Source: Rubripirellula lacrimiformis (lineage in GTDB: Bacteria; Planctomycetota; Planctomycetia; Pirellulales; Pirellulaceae). From it: a stretch of 64,000 nt of DNA. The stretch is taken from assembly GCF_007741535.1 (NCBI RefSeq), contig NZ_CP036525.1:2108001-2172000 (forward strand), given 5' to 3'. The notes under the pieces are model-generated. The model saw only the letters and a program-made list of their open reading frames with translations, did no database searches and was not told the origin of the DNA. Of the stretch, positions 31,777-44,734 are shown piece after piece (the stretch's first letter is position 1; every line of letters starts with the position of its first letter). The position numbers and the translations under genes are program-made.

Positions 31777-32292
31777 GTGTTCAAAATAGCTATTGGAAGC
31801 GACCACCGCGGCGTGAAAATCAAGAATCGCTTGGTGCAGTCACTGACCACCGCCGGCTACACCATTTTGGATGCCGGTACCCACAGTGATGCAGCCGTTG
31901 ATTATCCCGACATCGCCATGCAGGTGGCTGCCAAGGTCAGTGCCGGACAGGCCGATCGCGGTATCTTGATCTGCGGAACCGGGATCGGGATGTCGATTGC
32001 CGCTAACAAATTTGACGGTGTGCGAGCGGCGTCCTGTTATGACGAAGTCATGGTGGAAATCAGCCGCCGACACAATGACGTGAACATCCTGTGTTTGCCC
32101 GGTGACATGATCGGTGACCGGCCGATTGATGATCTGGTCCTGATGTGGTTGCAAACGGACTTCGATGGTGGACGCCATGCGGTCCGCATCACCAAAATTT
32201 CGGAACTGGAACGTCGCGGAACATCGCCAACACCAGCCAGTCCATCGTCTCAGAACTCATCGTCACCTGCGGCGTCCTCTGAATCAGCATGA
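31777..32292 (+). CDS. rpiB: Ribose-5-phosphate isomerase B
   Basis: This sugar-phosphate isomerase of about 171 residues interconverts ribose-5-phosphate and ribulose-5-phosphate. IAIGSDHRG opens the fold, DYPD binds phosphate or base, and ICGTGIGMSIAANK carries the catalytic Cys66. The RAASCYDEVM and RRHNDVNILCL segments follow as in the family. The start is GTG at 31777; the longer in-frame extension overlaps the previous gene and has no homology. The C-terminus has an extra Ser/Pro-rich tail of about 25 residues. It overlaps holB by 4 bp (ATGA), indicating translational coupling. Confidence 0.93.
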   Translation: MFKIAIGSDHRGVKIKNRLVQSLTTAGYTILDAGTHSDAAVDYPDIAMQVAAKVSAGQADRGILICGTGIGMSIAANKFDGVRAASCYDEVMVEISRRHNDVNILCLPGDMIGDRPIDDLVLMWLQTDFDGGRHAVRITKISELERRGTSPTPASPSSQNSSSPAASSESA

Positions 32293-35909: not shown

Positions 35910-36022
35910 ATCAATGTCGTAGTGGCTGGGGGACGAATCAGGTGTCGAAGTGCTCGGAAACAGCCTAACGGCCGATCGCGTTAGGGTCGATATCCCCGCG
36001 ACAAATGAAAATGTTGCGAATA

Positions 36023-36060
36023 TTCTGTCAAAACACCTTCTGGGTGATTGTTTTCTGTCA
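36023..36060. promoter_or_regulatory. Direct TTCTGTCA repeats between SDR and DeoR genes
   Basis: TTCTGTCA occurs at 36023-36030 and again at 36053-36060, spaced 30 bp (close to three helical turns), immediately before the DeoR start at 36064. Between them, AAAACACC and GGTGATTGTTTT form an imperfect dyad. This is a possible operator for autoregulation. Confidence 0.35.
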
Positions 36061-36063
36061 TCG

Positions 36064-36933
36064 ATGAGAGAAAACTATCGCTGTGTGAAGATGGCTGTTC
36101 TAGGTGGCCTTGGATGGAGATCGTGGGTGCGAAGCCAACCCATTAGCGCAAAGCGACGCGACCGACTTCGTGACCTGGTTCAGGCTCGCGGGTTTGCGTC
36201 GTTGGGCGAATTGGCGGCTTCTTTGGAAGTCAGCGAGTCCACGATTCGGCGTGATTTGGAACAGCTGGAAAAGGATGGCCATGCACGGCGTACCCACGGC
36301 GGCGCGTTTTGGACGGGGGATCCGGACACGATGGAGGTCTTCCAGACCCGTCGCGACGATTCCTGGCCGGCCAAGGTCGCGATCGGCGTCGCGGCATCGT
36401 CGATGATCGAAGACCACGACACCATTTTGTTGGATGGAGGCAGTACGACCTACGAATTGGCACGCCACTTGGTCCAGCGACCTCTGCAAGTGGTGACCAA
36501 CAGCCTGCCGGTGGCTCACCTTTTATCGGCCAGCGAATCGATCGACTTGGTCATGATCGGCGGCTGTGTGCGAGGGCGAACGGCGGTGACGATTGGGCCG
36601 ATGGCCGACACGATGCTGCGAAGCATCAACGTCGGCAAAGCGTTTTTGTCGGTCGCTGGAATCACCGAGCGAGGGTTTTTCAACAGCAACATGATGTTGG
36701 TGGAAAGCGAAAAAGTGATGATCGAGGCGGCTGACCGGACGATCGTGGTCGCCGACAGCAGCAAGTTCGGAAAAGTCAGTCTAAGCCGACTGTGCGGATT
36801 GCAGGACGTGGACACGGTGGTCACGGACGCCGGACTGCAAAGCGAATGGAAACAGCATCTGGAAATGGCAGACGTCGAACTAGTCTTGGCGTCTAAGAGC
36901 GAACACAAATCAACTCACCTAAAAACATCGTGA
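36064..36933 (+). CDS. DeoR-family regulator of the microcompartment locus
   Basis: This protein of about 289 residues has an N-terminal DeoR helix-turn-helix (KRRDRLRDLVQARG, then VSESTIRRDLEQLEKDGHARR, HGGA) and a C-terminal sugar-phosphate-sensing domain with ILLDGGSTTYELARHL and ADSSKFGKVSLSRL. It is the only regulator in front of the BMC operon. It probably represses the operon until a sugar phosphate (for example rhamnulose- or fuculose-phosphate) binds; this is inferred from family and position. Start choice is uncertain: ATG 36064 or ATG 36091. The stop codon lies inside a CGTGATCACG palindrome. Confidence 0.88.
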   Translation: MRENYRCVKMAVLGGLGWRSWVRSQPISAKRRDRLRDLVQARGFASLGELAASLEVSESTIRRDLEQLEKDGHARRTHGGAFWTGDPDTMEVFQTRRDDSWPAKVAIGVAASSMIEDHDTILLDGGSTTYELARHLVQRPLQVVTNSLPVAHLLSASESIDLVMIGGCVRGRTAVTIGPMADTMLRSINVGKAFLSVAGITERGFFNSNMMLVESEKVMIEAADRTIVVADSSKFGKVSLSRLCGLQDVDTVVTDAGLQSEWKQHLEMADVELVLASKSEHKSTHLKTS

Positions 36934-37041: not shown

Positions 37042-37776
37042 ATGAATTCATCCATCATTGATCGAAGCGTGATTGAACAGTTGGTTCGTGGCGCTCTGCG
37101 CCAAACGGGCAGTTCGTCTTCGGCACCCGCGACCGCGGCTGCGGCCCGGGTCGCCAATCCGGCCGGTTGGGTCGACGGAAAACCGAATTTGCGAGTCAGC
37201 ATTTCGGCCCGTCACTGCCACCTAACCGATGAACACGTCGAGACGTTGTTTGGCCCCGGCGCCGTGCTGGTTCCCGAAAAAGACCTGTATCAGGATGGGT
37301 TCTATGCGGCCCAGCAGACCGTCATGGTCGTGGGCCCACGCCGCCGAATGTTGGGCAGCGTCCGCGTGCTAGGTCCGACCCGTCCCTTCAGCCAGGTTGA
37401 ACTGGCGCTGACCGATTCGATTTCGCTGGGCATCGACGCACCGGTTCGCCACAGCGGCCAGATCGACGGCACGCCCGGATGCGTGTTGGTGGGGCCGGTT
37501 GGCAGCGTCCAACTGGACCAAGGCGTCATTCGCGCCGCCCGACACGTGCACATGAACCTGTCCGACTGCGATTACTATGACGTCAAAAACGGCGACATGA
37601 TGCAGTTGAAAATCACCAGTCCCGATTGCAGCGTCAGTTTTGAAGACGTGCTGGTCCGTGCCGACAAGGCCGCCAAGTTAGAGGTCCACATCGACACGGA
37701 CGAAGGCAACGCATGCAATCTGGATGCGGCGACTGAGGTTGTGCTGAAGAAGAGCGGCTGCGGCTGCCAAAAATAA
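37042..37776 (+). CDS. pduL: Microcompartment phosphate acyltransferase
   Basis: PduL converts an acyl-CoA (here probably lactyl-CoA) to acyl-phosphate inside the microcompartment, recycling CoA. The 244-residue protein starts with an amphipathic helix (SIIDRSVIEQLVRGALRQT) and an Ala/Ser-rich linker, the layout of an encapsulation peptide. The two PduL repeats follow, with zinc-binding motifs ISARHCHL and ARHVHMNL and the RVLGPTRPFSQVEL core. The Cys-rich tail (GCGCQK) is unusual. It heads the BMC operon and is followed by two hexamer shell genes. Confidence 0.93.
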   Translation: MNSSIIDRSVIEQLVRGALRQTGSSSSAPATAAAARVANPAGWVDGKPNLRVSISARHCHLTDEHVETLFGPGAVLVPEKDLYQDGFYAAQQTVMVVGPRRRMLGSVRVLGPTRPFSQVELALTDSISLGIDAPVRHSGQIDGTPGCVLVGPVGSVQLDQGVIRAARHVHMNLSDCDYYDVKNGDMMQLKITSPDCSVSFEDVLVRADKAAKLEVHIDTDEGNACNLDAATEVVLKKSGCGCQK

Positions 37777-37860
37777 ACGACGTCAGTGCTGGAACATCAT
37801 CTAGCACTGAAAACCAATACCAAACTCCTACTTTCCCTCCTTTTCAAAGGTAGTTTTACG

Positions 37861-38154
37861 ATGGCAAAAGTTAGCGAAGCGCTCGGCATGATCGAGACCA
37901 AGGGATTCATTTCCTTGGTGGAAGCATGCGATGCGATGATGAAGGCAGCAAACGTTCAATTCATGGGCTGGGACAAGGTCGGCAGCGGCCTGTGCAGCGC
38001 ATTCGTCACCGGCGATGTGGCCGCGGTCAAAGCCGCCACCGACGCTGGTGCTGCCGCAGCAGGACGCGTGGGTGAAGTCGTCAGCGTGCAAGTGATTCCT
38101 CGACCGCACGAAGACATCGCCAAGATCCTGAAGACCCCACCAGCCAAGAAGTAA
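37861..38154 (+). CDS. BMC-H hexameric shell protein (first)
   Basis: This 97-residue protein is a single Pf00936-type BMC domain that forms hexameric tiles of the shell facets. [20 protein letters not shown] is the typical opening helix-strand, [19 protein letters not shown] the pore-flanking region, and VIPRPHEDI the closing motif. ATG 37861 follows a short leader; an upstream in-frame start gives unrelated residues. A short Lys/Pro tail (LKTPPAKK) distinguishes it from the next shell protein. Confidence 0.95.
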
Positions 38155-38219: not shown

Positions 38220-38489
38220 ATGAACGATGCAATCGGGTTGATCGAAACCAAAGGCTTGTTGCCCCTGATCGAAGCCACCGACGCCATGGCGAAGGCCGCA
38301 AACGTCCAAATCGTAAAACGAGTCGACATTGGCGGCGCGTATGTTACGACCGTCGTCAGCGGTGACGTCGGCAGCGTCCGCGCAGCAGTCGAAGCCGGTG
38401 CAGCAGCAGCTGCCCAAGTCGGCGAATTGGTCGGCAGCCACATCATCGCTCGGCCTGCCGAAGGTCTTGCTGCCGCGTTGTTGTCCTAA
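38220..38489 (+). CDS. BMC-H hexameric shell protein (second)
   Basis: This 89-residue single BMC domain begins directly with AIGLIETKGLLPLIEATDAM and ends HIIARPAEGLAAALLS. It lacks the Lys-rich tail of the preceding paralogue, so the two hexamers probably have different pore or edge properties. It lies 65 bp downstream of the first BMC-H gene in the same operon. Confidence 0.95.
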   Translation: MNDAIGLIETKGLLPLIEATDAMAKAANVQIVKRVDIGGAYVTTVVSGDVGSVRAAVEAGAAAAAQVGELVGSHIIARPAEGLAAALLS

Positions 38490-38622: not shown

Positions 38623-39810
38623 GTGCTAGTTCTTGTAGCGAATCTAGGATCGACCAGCTTCAAGTATCGATTATTCGATATGGCCGACGAACGTTGTTTG
38701 GCGCGAGGTGCGGTGGACCGCATCGGTGATGCGCAAAGCGAATGTTCTGTTGAAATCGGTGATTGGAAAGAAACACGTACCATGCCGGTGCCGGATCACG
38801 GTGTGGCAGTGGCGGCGTGTTTGGAACAATTGACGGACCCTGAACATGGCGCACTGAAAGATGCATCGGAGGTTGCCGCGATTGGATTCAAGGCAGTTCA
38901 CGGTGGTCGGTTGTCAGGTGTGTTTGTGGTCGACGACGAAGTGCTAGATGCGATGGCAGAGATGAACGCGGCTGCGCCCGCGCACAATCCGCCTTACATC
39001 GCGGCGATGAAGTTGTTGCGAGATCGGTTCCCCAACCTGCCGTTGGTGGCCGCCTTCGAAACCGACTTTCATCGCACCATTCCGGCAGCTCGTCGTGAAT
39101 ATGCGATCCCACGGGATTGGGCGGACCAGTTCCATATCCGGCGTTACGGATTCCACGGTGCCAGCCATCGGTTCATTGCCGGTCGGGTGGCTCAGTTGCT
39201 TGGTCGTAGCGATGCACGCGTGATTTCGTGTCACTTGGGCGGCAGCAGTTCGTTGACCGCGATCCAAAACGGAAACAGCGTGATGACGACCATGGGCATG
39301 ACCCCGCAGACGGGAGTGCCTCAGAACAACCGGGTCGGCGACTTCGACCCATTTGCGTTGCCATTGATCATCCAGCGAACCGGCATGACGTTGGACGAAG
39401 TGCTCACCCGCTTGGCCAGCCAAGGTGGTCTGCTGGGGCTTAGCGACAACAGTGGCGACATGCGAGATCTGGAAACGGCTGCCGCGGCCGGTGACCAGAA
39501 ATCTCAGTTGGCACTGGACGTCTTTGTTGAAGAGGTTCGTCGTCACATGGGCGGCATGATCGTTGCCATGGGCGGCGTTGACGCGATCGTGTTTACCGGT
39601 GGCATCGGCGAGAAAGGAAAAGAGGTTCGGGCGGCGATCTGCGCGAATCTGGAACAGCTTGGCGTTGTGGTGGACCGCGCTGCCAACGAAGCCATTGATG
39701 GCGAAGGGAACTTTCATGACAGCGACAGTCGTACGCAGTTGTGGGTGATCCCGACCAACGAAGAAGTGATCGTGGCCCGGCAAACTGTCGAGCGGTTGCA
39801 AACCTCTTAA
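38623..39810 (+). CDS. ackA: Acetate-kinase-family acyl kinase of the microcompartment
   Basis: This 395-residue protein should transfer phosphate from an acyl-phosphate (probably lactyl-phosphate made by PduL) to ADP. The ASKHA fold is clear: NLGSTSFK at residue 7, RYGFHGASH, CHLGGSSS, FTGGIGEKG and IPTNEE. Compared by eye with Methanosarcina thermophila AckA, His121, His178, His204 and Arg237 are kept. However, Lys90 replaces Arg91, Glu146 replaces the catalytic Asp148, and Gly207 replaces Asn211. The start is GTG at 38623. The substitutions suggest an altered substrate or weakened activity; lactyl-phosphate specificity is inference from the operon. Confidence 0.85.
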   Translation: MLVLVANLGSTSFKYRLFDMADERCLARGAVDRIGDAQSECSVEIGDWKETRTMPVPDHGVAVAACLEQLTDPEHGALKDASEVAAIGFKAVHGGRLSGVFVVDDEVLDAMAEMNAAAPAHNPPYIAAMKLLRDRFPNLPLVAAFETDFHRTIPAARREYAIPRDWADQFHIRRYGFHGASHRFIAGRVAQLLGRSDARVISCHLGGSSSLTAIQNGNSVMTTMGMTPQTGVPQNNRVGDFDPFALPLIIQRTGMTLDEVLTRLASQGGLLGLSDNSGDMRDLETAAAAGDQKSQLALDVFVEEVRRHMGGMIVAMGGVDAIVFTGGIGEKGKEVRAAICANLEQLGVVVDRAANEAIDGEGNFHDSDSRTQLWVIPTNEEVIVARQTVERLQTS

Positions 39811-39845: not shown

Positions 39846-40160
39846 ATGTTCATCGCACGCGTTACCGGATCGGTCGTTGCCACCCAAAAAGTGGGGTCAA
39901 TGACCGGTCACAAACTGTTGGTGGTCGAACCGTATCGATTGGAAGAGAAGAAGCGAGGTTCGCTGGTCCCGACCGGGCGAACGTTCATCGCCGTCGATCC
40001 CCTCGGCAGCGGCGAAGGCGACTATGTGCTGATTTGCCAAGGCAGCAGTGCTCGGTTGACACCGGAGACAAAAGATCTGCCGATCGACGCGGTTGTCATC
40101 GGTCTGGTCGACAGCGTTCACATTGAAAAGACAAACGTTTATTCCCGAAACGATAGCTAG
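39846..40160 (+). CDS. BMC-P pentameric shell protein (first; EutN/CcmL family)
   Basis: This 104-residue vertex protein has the EutN/CcmL pattern: it opens MFIARVTGSVVATQKVGSM, continues LLVVEPYRLEE, and has AVDPLGSGEGDYVLICQGSSAR and VIGLVDSVHI. Pentamers cap the vertices of the shell. It is the longest of the three BMC-P proteins here and lies 2 bp before pduP. Confidence 0.94.
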   Translation: MFIARVTGSVVATQKVGSMTGHKLLVVEPYRLEEKKRGSLVPTGRTFIAVDPLGSGEGDYVLICQGSSARLTPETKDLPIDAVVIGLVDSVHIEKTNVYSRNDS

Positions 40161-40162
40161 AC

Positions 40163-41584
40163 ATGCAATTTGACGAAAACACGATCCGCAGCGTTGTCGC
40201 CCAAGTCTTGGCCGAAGTCGGTCCTCTGCCATCCGCCCAGCCTGGTGCATCAGCCGGTGGCAAGCACGGCATCTTTTACGACGCTGACTCTGCCGTCGCT
40301 GCTGCTCGCGCAGCCTTCGAACAGTTTCGCACGCGGCCCTTGGCGACTCGCAAGCAAGTGATCGACATCATTCGCAAGATCGCCATCGAGAACAGCGAAG
40401 AACTTGGTTTGATGGAGATGAATGAAACCAAGATCGGTCGACCCGAGCACAAGATTGAAAAGCTGCGAGCGCTCGGCGAGATGTCGCCAGGAGTCGAGTT
40501 TTTGGAAACCAAGTGCTACAGCGGTGACCACGGTCTAGCCGTTATCGAACGGGCTCCCTTTGGCGTCATCGGTGCAATCACGCCTGTGACGCACAGTTTG
40601 CCGACGATCACTGGCAACGCGGTCAGCATGTTGGCCGGTGGGAATACCGTTGTTGTGAACCCACACCCATCGGGCAAATTGGTCGCTGCCGAAGGGGTGC
40701 GACGGTACAACGAAGAAATCTCGCGACAAATCGGTATCGACAATCTGATCTGCGTGATCGCTGAACCGACTTTGGAAAGTGCCGAAGCGTTGTTCAAAAA
40801 CCGCGATGTCTCGCTGATCTGTGTGACCGGTGGGCCTGCGGTTGCACGTGCGGCGCTGAACAGTGGCAAGCGAGCCATCGTTGCCGGTCCAGGCAATCCG
40901 CCTGTGGTGGTCGACGAAACGGCCGACTTGGACAACGCCGCTCGCTGCATCATCCAAGGTGCTGCCTACGACAACAATTTGCTTTGCATCGCGGAAAAGG
41001 AAGTGTTTGTTGTCGAAAGTGTTTTCGACGAAATGATGGCTGCTATGCGACGCGCCGGCGCCGTCCAGTTGGATGCCGGTCAGATCGCAAAGCTGACAAG
41101 CAAAGCCATCGTCAAGGTGGGCGACGACCAACACGACGCAGCCTGCAAGGACTTTATCGGCCAAGACGCATCGGTCCTTGCTGCGGCAGCCGGTGTCACC
41201 GTTCCCGAGGGAACCGAGTTGGTGTTTGGCGAAACCGATGAACATCACCCGTTTGTCACCGTCGAACAGATGATGCCGTTCGTTCCATTTGTCCGTGCAC
41301 GATGCGTTGACCACGCCATTTCGCTGGCCAAAGAATACGAGCATGGGTTCCGTCACACTGCCATCATTCACTCTCGTAACGTTCACAATATGACCAAAAT
41401 GGGTCGTGAATTGGACACGACGCTGTATGTCAAGAATGGACCTTGCATGGCATCGCTCGGTTTGGGCGGCGAAGGGTACATCTCGTTCTCGATCGCGGGT
41501 CCAACCGGCGAAGGCGTGACAACACCCAACACGTTCACCCGCGAACGTCGCTGCAGCATGATCGATGAACTGCGAGTGGTTTGA
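40163..41584 (+). CDS. pduP: CoA-acylating aldehyde dehydrogenase (PduP-type)
   Basis: This 473-residue enzyme oxidises an aldehyde (lactaldehyde in this type of locus) with NAD+ and CoA to the acyl-CoA inside the shell. The N-terminal helix (DENTIRSVVAQVLAEVG) with a Pro/Ala/Gly linker is an encapsulation peptide. The ALDH fold follows from about residue 38, with VIGAITPVTH, VVNPHPSGK, the VTGG loop and catalytic Cys275 in DNNLLCIAEKEV. The lack of the usual ALDH general-base Glu fits CoA-acylating members. Gaps to the flanking shell genes are 2-3 bp, so translation is tightly linked. Confidence 0.94.
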   Translation: MQFDENTIRSVVAQVLAEVGPLPSAQPGASAGGKHGIFYDADSAVAAARAAFEQFRTRPLATRKQVIDIIRKIAIENSEELGLMEMNETKIGRPEHKIEKLRALGEMSPGVEFLETKCYSGDHGLAVIERAPFGVIGAITPVTHSLPTITGNAVSMLAGGNTVVVNPHPSGKLVAAEGVRRYNEEISRQIGIDNLICVIAEPTLESAEALFKNRDVSLICVTGGPAVARAALNSGKRAIVAGPGNPPVVVDETADLDNAARCIIQGAAYDNNLLCIAEKEVFVVESVFDEMMAAMRRAGAVQLDAGQIAKLTSKAIVKVGDDQHDAACKDFIGQDASVLAAAAGVTVPEGTELVFGETDEHHPFVTVEQMMPFVPFVRARCVDHAISLAKEYEHGFRHTAIIHSRNVHNMTKMGRELDTTLYVKNGPCMASLGLGGEGYISFSIAGPTGEGVTTPNTFTRERRCSMIDELRVV

Positions 41585-41587
41585 TCC

Positions 41588-41842
41588 ATGCAAACCGCCC
41601 GTGTACTCGGTTCGACTCGCGCCACCGTCAAAGATAAAAGCCTTGGCGGCGTTCGCTTGGTGATTGTCCAACCGTTGCTATTGAATGATTCGCCCGACGG
41701 ACCACCGTTGATTGCGGTAGATGGGTTGGGTTGCCGACGCGGCGACCAAGTGATGTTGACCAGTGACGGCACACTGGCACGCGAGATTACACAAAACGAA
41801 AATACTCCGGCGCGTTGGAGCGTCGCAGGCATACTGGACTGA
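41588..41842 (+). CDS. BMC-P pentameric shell protein (second)
   Basis: This 84-residue EutN/CcmL-type vertex protein opens MQTARVLGSTRATVKDKSL, continues LVIVQPLLLNDSPDG, and has AVDGLGCRRGDQVMLTSDG and ARWSVAGILD. It is shorter than the first BMC-P, lacking the extension after the last strand. It lies 3 bp after pduP and 5 bp before the unassigned cargo-like gene. Confidence 0.93.
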   Translation: MQTARVLGSTRATVKDKSLGGVRLVIVQPLLLNDSPDGPPLIAVDGLGCRRGDQVMLTSDGTLAREITQNENTPARWSVAGILD

Positions 41843-41847
41843 TTCGA

Positions 41848-42513
41848 ATGCCCAACGGCAAAACCACAGCGACGACCGACTCCGCCTGGGTTTCCCAGAT
41901 CGCGGCTGAGGTGGTTGCGCGGTTGCGGGCGACCGGATCGGAAACCAGCCGGGCAATCCATGCTGGTTCGATCATTGCAGATTCCGCCGGTCCGTCGGGA
42001 TCCGTCGGATCAGACTCCGATGTCCCACAAAGTGCTTTGCTGAAGGTCATCGATACCACGGTGATTGCAAGCACGGCGGCCGGCACGGTTTTGGATGTAT
42101 CCGCCCAAGCGGTGATCACACCGGCGGCGAAAGACGATGCCAAGCAAAAGAACATCACGATTTCGAGGTTGGCAAAGTGCGCACCGCCCCAACCGGTTTC
42201 GGATCCGTCGCTGACCGCCGGCATTGTTGATGTGGATACAGATCGTGGCCGATCGGTCGCCGACCAGTTGGCACGCCGAGGCATCCGGTCGATCGGTGTC
42301 GGCATCGTCCTCAGCGATACTCCCGCGCTTGATCTGGTGGGCCAATTTGCGAAAGGATCCCGAGCGGCGATGGCGGGATCGATCGAAGAAATTCGGCGGT
42401 TCGGCAGCGAGGTCGATCCCGATGTCTGGGTGCTGGACATGAAACGCATGAATTTGGTGACGGCCATCAATGCCATCGCAATCATCGCACGAACCAACGG
42501 AGCCAGATCATGA
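41848..42513 (+). CDS. Unassigned microcompartment protein with cargo-like helix and RpiB-like domain
   Basis: This 221-residue protein has no function I can name. Residues 12-28 (SAWVSQIAAEVVARLRA) form an amphipathic helix like the encapsulation peptides of PduL, PduP and the aldolase, followed by a Ser/Gly-rich linker (29-60). A VITPAAKD motif (89-96) resembles a segment found in several BMC accessory proteins. Residues about 124-215 look like a degenerate RpiB/LacA fold: VDVDTDRG aligns with the GSDHRG opening of RpiB, and GSRAAMAGSIEEI with its GVRAASCYDEV, but the catalytic CGTGIG loop is not preserved. It ends in a 4-bp overlap with the next BMC-P gene. Confidence 0.8.
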   Translation: MPNGKTTATTDSAWVSQIAAEVVARLRATGSETSRAIHAGSIIADSAGPSGSVGSDSDVPQSALLKVIDTTVIASTAAGTVLDVSAQAVITPAAKDDAKQKNITISRLAKCAPPQPVSDPSLTAGIVDVDTDRGRSVADQLARRGIRSIGVGIVLSDTPALDLVGQFAKGSRAAMAGSIEEIRRFGSEVDPDVWVLDMKRMNLVTAINAIAIIARTNGARS

Positions 42514-42791
42514 AGATGGCAAGAACGATTGGCACAGTAACGCTGTCCCGTGCACATCCGGGACTGCAAGGTGCTCAGCTTCGCTGCGTCGAAGTGATCG
42601 AATCGATCGACCAACTGGATACGCAACCATTGGGCGGCGAAATGATCGTCGCCTGGGATTTGTGCGGCAGCGGAACCAATGACTTGGTGGCGCTGGCCGA
42701 AGGCCCGGAAGCCGCTCAACCGTTTCGGCCAGACGTCAAACCTCTGGATGCTTCGATCGTAGCCCTGCTAGACGAAGTCGATTTGGGCTGA
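42510..42791 (+). CDS. BMC-P pentameric shell protein (third)
   Basis: This 93-residue EutN/CcmL-type protein has MARTIGTVTLSRAHPGLQG, RCVEVIESIDQ, VAWDLCGSGTNDLVALAEG and ASIVALLDEVDL. Its ATG overlaps the stop of the preceding gene (ATGA), suggesting coupled translation with that protein. Three distinct vertex proteins in one locus suggest specialised vertices; this is a known trait of planctomycete-type BMC loci. Confidence 0.92.
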   Translation: MKMARTIGTVTLSRAHPGLQGAQLRCVEVIESIDQLDTQPLGGEMIVAWDLCGSGTNDLVALAEGPEAAQPFRPDVKPLDASIVALLDEVDLG

Positions 42792-42872: not shown

Positions 42873-43733
42873 ATGCAAAACATTCATAAGATCAAGCAAG
42901 ACATGTGCGACATCGGCCGTCGCATCTACAACCGTCAATTCGCTGCGGCCAATGACGGCAATATCACTGTGCGAGTCAGCGAGAACGAAGTGCTTTGCAC
43001 GCCGACGCTTCATTGCAAAGGCTTTCTAACGCCGGATGATATTTCCTTGGTCGATATGACTGGCAAGCAACTTTCGGGGCGTAAGAAACGGTCCAGCGAA
43101 GCGTTGCTGCACCTGGAAATTTACAAGCAACGCGACGACATCAAAAGTGTCGTTCACTGCCACCCACCGCACGCCACCGCTTTCGCAATCGCACGCGAAC
43201 CGATTCCACAATGCATTTTGCCAGAAGTCGAGGTGTTCCTCGGTGACGTGCCGATCACCAAGTACGAAACGCCTGGCGGGCAAAGCTTTGCCGATACGAT
43301 CATCCCATTTGTTCATCGCACGAACGTGATGATCTTGGCCAACCACGGTACGGTTAGCTATGGCGAAACGGTCGAACAAGCTTTCTGGTGGACCGAAATT
43401 TTGGACGCCTACTGCCGTATGTTGATCCTGGCAAAACAGCTTGGCAACGTGTCCTACCTCAGTGGCGAAAAGTCTCAGGAACTGTTGGATCTGAAGGACA
43501 AGTGGGGCTACAAAGATCCACGCAACACACCGGAGTACGAAGATTGCGATATCTGTGCCAACGATATCTTCCGCGATTCGTGGGCCGAATCCGGCGTTGC
43601 CCGTCGAGCCTTTGCTGCACCGCCGGCGCTGAAAAAAGCCGCTAGCAGCGCCGCATCGGGTGCCGGGATCAACGAAGAAGCGTTGGTCAAAGCGATCACC
43701 GACGAAGTGATGCGTCAGATGCGAAAAGGCTAA
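42873..43733 (+). CDS. Class II aldolase with C-terminal encapsulation peptide (fuculose/rhamnulose-phosphate aldolase type)
   Basis: This 286-residue zinc aldolase is predicted to cleave L-fuculose-1-phosphate or L-rhamnulose-1-phosphate to dihydroxyacetone phosphate and lactaldehyde. By analogy with FucA, the zinc ligands are His95, His97 (VVHCHPPH) and His158 (ANHGT), with Glu76 as acid/base. After the aldolase domain (to about residue 245) comes an Ala/Ser linker and a terminal amphipathic helix (INEEALVKAITDEVMRQM), which should target it into the shell. It is the entry enzyme of the pathway in this operon. Confidence 0.93.
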   Translation: MQNIHKIKQDMCDIGRRIYNRQFAAANDGNITVRVSENEVLCTPTLHCKGFLTPDDISLVDMTGKQLSGRKKRSSEALLHLEIYKQRDDIKSVVHCHPPHATAFAIAREPIPQCILPEVEVFLGDVPITKYETPGGQSFADTIIPFVHRTNVMILANHGTVSYGETVEQAFWWTEILDAYCRMLILAKQLGNVSYLSGEKSQELLDLKDKWGYKDPRNTPEYEDCDICANDIFRDSWAESGVARRAFAAPPALKKAASSAASGAGINEEALVKAITDEVMRQMRKG

Positions 43734-43798: not shown

Positions 43799-44734
43799 AT
43801 GAAAGTTTCCATCATCGGCGCCGGTGGATTGGTCGGTTCCTGTGCCGCCTACGCGCTACAGTGCGGCGGCATCGCTAGCGAACTAGCACTGTTGGACGTC
43901 AATCAAGAGATGGCCATCGGTCAGGCTTTGGATCTTCAGCACGGCAGCCCCAGCGTTGCCAATCAAGTGATCCGAGGCGGTGGTTACGAGCATATCCCCG
44001 ATAGCGATGTGATCTGCATCACGGCCGGTTTGCGGCGTAAACCGGATGAATCGCGACTGGACCTGATCAATCGGAATACCGACTTGTTCATGCAGATTTT
44101 GACAGATGTCAAAGCTGCTGGACTGAAACAGTCGGCCATTGTGTTGGTGGTCAGTAACCCGGTCGATATCCTGACCTATGTCGCAGCCGAAAAACTGGGG
44201 CTGCCGGTCAATCAAGTGATCGGGCTTGGAACACAACTGGATACCATTCGTTTCTGCTCGCTGATTGCGGAGCAGCTCAATGCTCCACCGACCCAGACCA
44301 AGGCATTGATCTTGGGCGAACACGGCGAATCGATGGTGCCGATCTGGAGCAGCGCGACGATCGCCGGACTGCCACTGGATAAGTACCCCGGTTGGAATCC
44401 TAGCCTGGCCAACCAGTTGTTCACGCGAACACGCGGCAGCGGTGCCGAAGTGATCAAGCGAAAAGGTGGTGCCGGGTTCGCAGTCGGCATTGCGATTCGC
44501 GACGTGATCGATGCCATTGCCCTGGACAAGCGGTCAGTGCTGCCGGTCAGCAGCGTCCAATCCGGTTGTTACGGAATACGCAACGTTGCATTGTCCGTTC
44601 CCACCGTCGTCGGACGCAGTGGAGTCGTCGATCGTCTAGAAATCGATCTGTGGCCGAAAGAGATTCAAGGAATTCGATCCAGTGGATCGGCCCTTCGAAA
44701 AACCTTAGAGAAAGTGCTAGCACGCGTCTCCTAG
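43799..44734 (+). CDS. Lactate/malate dehydrogenase-family enzyme of the microcompartment operon
   Basis: This 311-residue NAD-dependent 2-hydroxyacid dehydrogenase has the IGAGGLVGS Rossmann loop, Asp148/Arg151 (LDTIRF), and the catalytic His175 (GEHGESMVP). The substrate-specificity position equivalent to LDH Gln102 is Arg80 (AGLRRKPDESR), the residue of malate dehydrogenases, whereas Glu84 follows the LDH pattern. No encapsulation peptide is visible. As the last gene of the operon it may reoxidise NADH from the PduP step. Whether it uses pyruvate/lactate or oxaloacetate/malate is open. Confidence 0.9.
   Translation: MKVSIIGAGGLVGSCAAYALQCGGIASELALLDVNQEMAIGQALDLQHGSPSVANQVIRGGGYEHIPDSDVICITAGLRRKPDESRLDLINRNTDLFMQILTDVKAAGLKQSAIVLVVSNPVDILTYVAAEKLGLPVNQVIGLGTQLDTIRFCSLIAEQLNAPPTQTKALILGEHGESMVPIWSSATIAGLPLDKYPGWNPSLANQLFTRTRGSGAEVIKRKGGAGFAVGIAIRDVIDAIALDKRSVLPVSSVQSGCYGIRNVALSVPTVVGRSGVVDRLEIDLWPKEIQGIRSSGSALRKTLEKVLARVS

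Follow-up and report, generated by a model that had tools for sequence, protein, structure and literature searches.

What does a gene without an assignment do when it lies between two genes for the pentameric shell proteins of a bacterial microcompartment (BMC)? The question is raised by a 64,000-nucleotide stretch of Rubripirellula lacrimiformis DNA (contig NZ_CP036525.1, positions 2,108,001 to 2,172,000; referred to as the window, whose nearest named homologs are from Rubripirellula), in which an operon with the gene content of a Planctomycetes and Verrucomicrobia microcompartment (PVM) contains such an open reading frame (ORF), designated gene X. A preliminary description, made from the sequence alone, took its product for a new lumen protein with an encapsulation helix and a dead RpiB-like domain, acting either as cargo that senses or binds a sugar phosphate or as a scaffold; of these two roles, the scaffold fits our results better. 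In the reading that we prefer, to which we assign a probability of roughly 0.6, X is a pseudoenzyme derived from the encapsulated RpiB of sugar phosphate utilizing (SPU)-type microcompartments, and acts in the manner of PduM as a structural joiner of core and shell during assembly.

As judged from sequence comparisons and a predicted model, the N-terminal helix, the TPAARD module, the RpiB fold and the place among the pentamer genes have been kept, and the active and phosphate sites have been lost. Since the active site is gone and both the targeting end and the place among shell genes are retained, X probably serves a new purpose as a component of assembly; its encapsulation and its structural role are inferred. 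The parts of the gene are as follows.

41848..42513, + strand: gene X, putative RpiB-derived pseudoenzyme of the PVM microcompartment, 221 amino acids (ORF, homologs, synteny, co-occurrence)
41881..41961, + strand: predicted N-terminal helix, residues 12-38, encapsulation-peptide-like, conserved core IxxIVREVxxRL (AF2 model, alignments)
41962..42030, + strand: Ser/Gly-rich linker, residues 39-61, predicted to be disordered
42034..42171, + strand: TPAARD module, residues 63-108, common to the N-termini of EutQ and EutT and the C-termini of PduM and TIGR02536 (profile comparisons)
42208..42510, + strand: predicted RpiB/LacAB-fold domain, residues 121-221, without catalytic or phosphate-binding motifs
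42510..42513, + strand: ATGA overlap of the X stop codon with the start codon of the next pentamer gene

The RpiB-like domain and its lost motifs

The preliminary description had recognized the order of RpiB in the C-terminal half of X, and this proved right, although the relationship is undetectable pairwise and becomes significant via intermediate profiles and by fold. The X protein (P0001) gave no match to PF02502, and a profile of its close relatives missed the RpiB of E. coli (E 0.45) and returned three unrelated rows, and no RpiB, in a PDB search. Among 148 relatives, PF02502 was matched by 62 at E values of up to 0.1, and one of eight distant orthologs passed its gathering score (29.7 bits). 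Profile alignments, on the other hand, linked A1 to A5 (E 7.8e-22) and A5 to A7, the alignment of SPU-type proteins described below (E 8e-22 over 212 columns). In both fold comparisons RpiB/LacAB entries came out on top: the first 22 and 23 rows, respectively, were RpiB/LacAB together with one DhuI entry (4u8f), which we take to be kin to them, and the next rows scored 5.3 and 9.1. A fold unrelated to RpiB, which would have spoken against the preliminary description, was not what emerged. Foldseek alone, run with P0001, gave a best E value of 0.013.

The catalytic and phosphate-binding residues of RpiB are presumably D9/H10, the C66 loop (66-71), H99/N100 and R133/R137. Pattern searches in 104 PVM proteins found DH in one (L087), the 66-69 loop and HNxxN in none, and RHxxR in two (L113 and L170), which bears out the absence of the catalytic Cys loop noted earlier. 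By alignment (105 PVM entries, among them L118, an aldehyde dehydrogenase ORF, and L063, in which the RpiB part is missing), the PVM proteins keep at most one of D9, H10, H99, N100, R133 and R137, and none has D9 with H10, H99 with N100 or R133 with R137; another alignment puts the L087 DH at D9/H10. The same genome also encodes an ordinary RpiB, which served for comparison.

31777..32292, + strand: ordinary rpiB, catalytic motifs intact (PF02502, E 3.8e-52)

X has lost the RpiB motifs and kept the homology, and is therefore derived from RpiB but not an RpiB; it differs from canonical RpiB/LacAB (PF02502) in the absent catalytic and phosphate motifs and in the additional N-terminal helix and module. 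The results support the description of X as a lumen-type protein composed of a catalytically dead RpiB-like domain behind an encapsulation-like helix and linker. NCBI names three orthologs (P0107, P0126 and P0157; not among the 104 counted proteins under these ids) "RpiB/LacA/LacB family sugar-phosphate isomerase".

A dead domain might nevertheless bind a ligand, since pseudoenzymes often retain this ability, and X could then be an allosteric sensor or ligand-binding subunit, with the domain holding a sugar phosphate or a metabolite derived from lactaldehyde and adjusting the activity of the aldolase or the aldehyde dehydrogenase. The adjoining aldolase uses sugar phosphates, residues of a new set (LSDTPA, WVLDMKRxN) vary little or not at all within the genus-level family, and some lineages keep the RpiB-like part alone, besides the alignment that places the L087 DH at the D9/H10 position. 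However, the motifs with which RpiB holds phosphate and sugar (D9, H10, the 66-71 loop, N100, R133, R137) have been lost, the new conserved residues are lineage-specific, with T91 and P92 as the only invariant residues in a class alignment of 38 sequences, and seven loci have dropped the domain. We consider this explanation unlikely, and the proposal that X senses or binds a sugar phosphate found no support.

A further alternative is that X is a heterodimer partner or dominant regulator of the ordinary RpiB, capturing this enzyme or its product inside the shell. The intact rpiB gene lies about 10 kb upstream, and RpiB and LacA/LacB are oligomers, but rpiB stands outside the operon in this window and the breakdown of fucose gives no reason for handling pentose phosphate, which makes this the least probable of the explanations considered, and a very improbable one.

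The N-terminal helix, the TPAARD module and the SPU-type relatives

The amphipathic helix originally placed at residues 12-28 is predicted at residues 12-38 and conserved in the family, with positions 15, 18 and 26 hydrophobic in all 146 relatives and Val at position 22 in 145 of them. Its amphipathic character did not stand out in X itself, where the hydrophobic moment of residues 12-28 (0.243) is not above that of shuffles (53% of which reach this value); for the family the median is 0.452, with 39 of 146 members below 0.05 and 100 of 146 below 0.2. Disorder is predicted in the Ser/Gly linker, with a pLDDT below 50 at residues 43-59. An encapsulation peptide has been defined as a terminal amphipathic helix of 15-20 amino acids with a flexible linker (PMC8217296). 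Among 79 E. coli proteins taken from four regions, with which our profiles were compared as a control, the X helix profile resembles the N-termini of PduD, EutC and PduB. PduD and PduB are described as bearing known targeting sequences (PMC12108088), and EutC1-19 as serving as a targeting tag (PMC4827028).

The motif VITPAAKD, also noted in the preliminary description, occupies residues 89-96, and T91, P92 and D96 are invariant in 148 sequences (alignment A4). When these 148 relatives were compared with NCBIfam, the commonest matches apart from RpiB-type models were TIGR02536 (109), the PduM models (70 and 50) and EutQ (24), with EutT matched by three and the commonest unrelated family by eight. 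In the E. coli control, EutQ, PduM and EutT headed the list for profile A1 through the module, PduD, EutC and PduB were in its top seven through the helix, and rpiB was within the top three for profiles A4 and A5 and absent from the top nine of A1. Aligned against A7, the module matched EutQ residues 3-49 (E 2.5e-5) and EutT residues 3-47 (E 5e-4), and the best E values of relatives of X against the PduM models (cut-offs 50 and 179 bits) were 1.3e-5 and 4e-6.

A separate observation concerns EutQ of E. coli (L125:18306-19004), residues 6-92 of which match the start of the NCBIfam EutA model (E 1.6e-9); perhaps this model is mis-built, or the module has yet another carrier.

The same helix, linker and TPAARD module, followed by an intact-looking RpiB domain, are present in other planctomycete genomes (A7, 18 sequences from loci L089, L091-L105, L109 and L110). 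A deoC gene occurs within the fetched stretch in all 18 of these loci, and pentamer genes adjoin 11; DeoC and RpiB together have been given as the signature of SPU microcompartments (PMC8217296). The gene order pentamer, RpiB, pentamer(s), DeoC of SPU-type loci with pentamers corresponds to pentamer, X, pentamer, aldolase in PVM loci. X thus resembles SPU-type RpiB (pfam02502; PMC8217296, PMC4207490) in architecture and is homologous to it along the full length. Unlike X, all 18 SPU-type proteins retain DH, the 66-69 loop, HNxxN and RHxxR, as well as all six aligned residues. In each of them the catalytic Cys66 is replaced by Asp (DGxG for CGTG), the other catalytic motifs being kept. The module was also recognized in this group by TIGR02536 (eight proteins), EutQ (six) and the PduM models (four and three). 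One SPU-like locus, in which an RpiB-like protein occurs together with a class II aldolase, has been described (PMC4207490), and it is plausible that this locus is an intermediate toward the PVM type.

Gene neighbourhood, distribution and reduced forms

X starts 5 nt past the stop codon of the upstream pentamer gene, and its 4-bp overlap with the downstream one, like the assignment of both flanking genes to the pentamers (PF03319), was confirmed. The other genes of the operon, in the order in which they occur, are listed below; Pfam scans cover PduL, the pentamers, the aldolase and the lactate/malate dehydrogenase, and the remaining names come from sequence recognition.

35950..36933, + strand: DeoR-type regulator, start uncertain (ORF, synteny)
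37042..37776, + strand: PduL phosphotransacylase with N-terminal helix (PF06130, E 8e-69)
37786..38154, + strand: BMC-H shell gene, start uncertain (ORF, synteny)
38220..38489, + strand: BMC-H shell gene (ORF, synteny)
38623..39810, + strand: acetate kinase (ORF, synteny)
39846..40160, + strand: third BMC-P (EutN/CcmL pentamer) gene (PF03319, E 5.5e-28)
40163..41584, + strand: aldehyde dehydrogenase (ORF, ortholog synteny)
41588..41842, + strand: BMC-P (EutN/CcmL pentamer) gene upstream of X (PF03319, E 2.5e-22)
42510..42791, + strand: BMC-P (EutN/CcmL pentamer) gene downstream of X (PF03319, E 2.8e-16)
42873..43733, + strand: class II aldolase, signature enzyme of PVM loci (PF00596, E 3.3e-48)
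43799..44734, + strand: lactate/malate dehydrogenase (PF00056, E 4.3e-38; PF02866, E 1.2e-30)

The PF00596 aldolase is reported as the signature of the PVM microcompartment, which breaks down L-fucose and L-rhamnose (PMC4207490). The X frame is also open upstream of its ATG (window 41815-41847), where MERHGDFGL-like residues are conserved in many relatives (also in L005-L020); this conservation probably stems from the other frame, because the last part of the upstream pentamer gene runs into this stretch.

Homolog searches returned 24 proteins including the query, then 105 with a profile and 156 with a profile of distant orthologs (120 listed). A narrow profile found X in 161 of 297 genomes of the class, and 236 of the 297 carry pentamer genes; PF03319 was present in all 161 X-positive genomes, and X in none of the 61 pentamer-negative ones. 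The family is therefore widespread in Planctomycetota and some of its members already carry an RpiB/LacA/LacB label, so the term "new" needs qualifying, although searches of open-access texts (main texts, with the founding PVM paper, PMC3993161, outside their range) turned up no description of it as part of an organelle. X lies between the second and third pentamer genes in 20 of 20 loci selected by X, and in 12 loci of pentamer-positive genomes missed by the narrow profile a diverged X was in place in ten, none being seen in L111 and L118. We also used loci that had not been selected by X, namely those of the best 80 of 521 aldolase relatives, 14 of which are truncated or hold the aldolase alone and so cannot be judged for X placement. 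Both flanking pentamer genes were present in 56, with X between them in 55 and none seen in the remaining one (L183), which answers the call for conservation across planctomycete loci: the place in the locus is kept. Some genomes occur twice in these sets (e.g. L088, L129), so the loci are not fully independent.

Coverage by the profiles showed both parts of the protein in 93 of 104 PVM proteins, the RpiB part only in nine, and the helix/module part only in two. At least two of the nine (L131 and L184) begin at a contig start; in L113, L117, L123 and L124, which are not cut by a contig start, the RpiB-like domain stands without helix and module and terminates in GHAHR, GYAHR or RHAHR. Conversely, X consists of helix and module alone (about 80-115 residues, no RpiB part) in L063 and L221-L226, where the ORF ends within about 80 nt of the next pentamer ORF or overlaps it, and where helix and module are still conserved and the flanking pentamer and enzyme genes kept. 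As eight loci had been picked for short or broken frames, the seven of eight found reduced do not represent a frequency. Some lineages thus retain helix and module but no domain, and others the domain but neither helix nor module. In L227, X is distributed over two reading frames, one with helix and module and the other with the RpiB-like part, as a result of either a sequencing error or decay of the gene.

These forms could be taken to mean that X is an evolutionary remnant, a decaying SPU leftover tolerated in a tight operon and perhaps retained solely because it couples translation of the following pentamer gene through the ATGA overlap. X has indeed changed faster than any other gene of the operon (47% and 45% identity to its nearest counterparts in two genomes, as against 79-97% for the other eleven genes), it was not found in three loci, and it has been cut to one part in some lineages and split in L227. 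Against this, dN/dS (the ratio of nonsynonymous to synonymous substitution rates) was 0.15-0.35 throughout the 29 pairs that share at least 55% identity among 13 sequences of the genus (dS exceeding 1.4 in several), so that X is under purifying selection; fold and module are kept across the class, helix and module remain conserved where the RpiB part is gone, and X is retained in ten loci without pentamer genes beside it. We therefore regard a mere remnant as rather unlikely.

The same purifying selection, together with the conservation of D157, D197, R184 and R200 in the 24-sequence genus family, could point to a changed enzyme, with a new active site on the RpiB fold that serves a step in the metabolism of lactaldehyde or fuculose. 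Yet none of the operon's enzymes evolves nearly as fast as X, no set of polar residues survives across the class, no missing pathway step is evident, and seven loci lack the domain although the flanking pentamer and enzyme genes are present there; such an activity appears quite improbable.

Proposed joining of core and shell

In the joiner reading, the X helix would sit in the enzyme core beside the helices of PduL, aldehyde dehydrogenase and aldolase, and the TPAARD module, common to PduM and the N-terminus of EutQ, would contact a shell protein. In proteins that retain it, the dead RpiB body, which like RpiB itself is probably oligomeric, would render the link multivalent. Helix and module appear to form the working unit, because seven PVM loci keep only those. 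X would thus act like PduM, joining core and shell while the compartment assembles.

The two proteins share an N-terminal targeting-type helix, a TPAARD-like module and a gene position just upstream of a EutN/CcmL gene, and the short X forms of L063 and L221-L226 are reduced to helix and module; PduM differs in lacking an RpiB domain and in that about 90 other residues come before its module, which is C-terminal. In E. coli E24377A, pduM directly precedes a EutN/CcmL gene, which we take to be pduN. CcmN/CcmM-type proteins are linkers of the carboxysome, and X is like them in the proposed core-shell link with a targeting helix, though the domains differ. Such linkers have been compared with PduM, the deletion of which is reported to separate shell and core in part (PMC9132943), and its N-terminal helix to suffice for targeting green fluorescent protein to the core (PMC12108088). 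According to the same 2025 account, PduM has no known sequence homology outside Pdu organelles (PMC12108088). In EutQ and EutT, the N-terminal segment that resembles the X module is attached instead to a cupin and an adenosyltransferase, respectively.

Several points weigh against a joining role. Matches to PduM in individual comparisons are modest (E 2e-4 to 0.011), and P0001 matched neither PduM model (TIGR04493, NF011957) at E values of up to 1. The module by itself is no proof of a structural role, because enzymes (SPU RpiB, EutT, EutQ) carry it too, nor is it indispensable, since L113, L117, L123 and L124 do without it. The mutual binding of PduM and PduB is disputed by PMC12108088; the EutQ residues reported as needed for EutM binding (1-100) exceed the module, and the authors of that work assumed binding to the cytosolic face of EutM (PMC4827028).

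Some lineages, moreover, lack helix and module or the whole gene. In ten of the 80 aldolase-fetched loci, X lies between the dehydrogenase and the aldolase with no pentamer gene beside it. PF03319 was found in 10 of 11 genomes (those of the ten loci, which are from Phycisphaerae, and of L141), in most with the pentamer genes clustered elsewhere; the ten are L136, L138, L139, L140, L142, L143, L145, L146, L148 and L153. None of the best 80 of 521 aldolase relatives is titled Verrucomicrobiota, and in one verrucomicrobial locus the pentamer genes are numbered consecutively, with no room for X between them (PMC13274419). PVM-type shells can accordingly form without X, as it was not found in L111, L118 and L183 and has no room in the verrucomicrobial locus.

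A broader version, which we put forward tentatively and at somewhat less than even odds, is that TPAARD is a shell-docking module across Pdu, Eut, SPU and PVM compartments, and that the PVM isomerase died, was kept as a PduM-equivalent tether and in some lineages was whittled down to helix and module. How core and shell are joined in metabolosomes is an open question, with PduM as a leading candidate linker, and the module common to PduM, EutQ, EutT, SPU RpiB and the PVM protein offers a short, testable segment. The family also calls into question the database labels under which some of its members are sugar-phosphate isomerases. From SPU RpiB through X with its dead domain to helix and module alone, the series presents an encapsulated enzyme that is first stripped of its active site and later, in some loci, of the whole domain, with the helix and the gene position staying. 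If our reading is true, the organelle would have turned its own cargo enzyme into an assembly protein.
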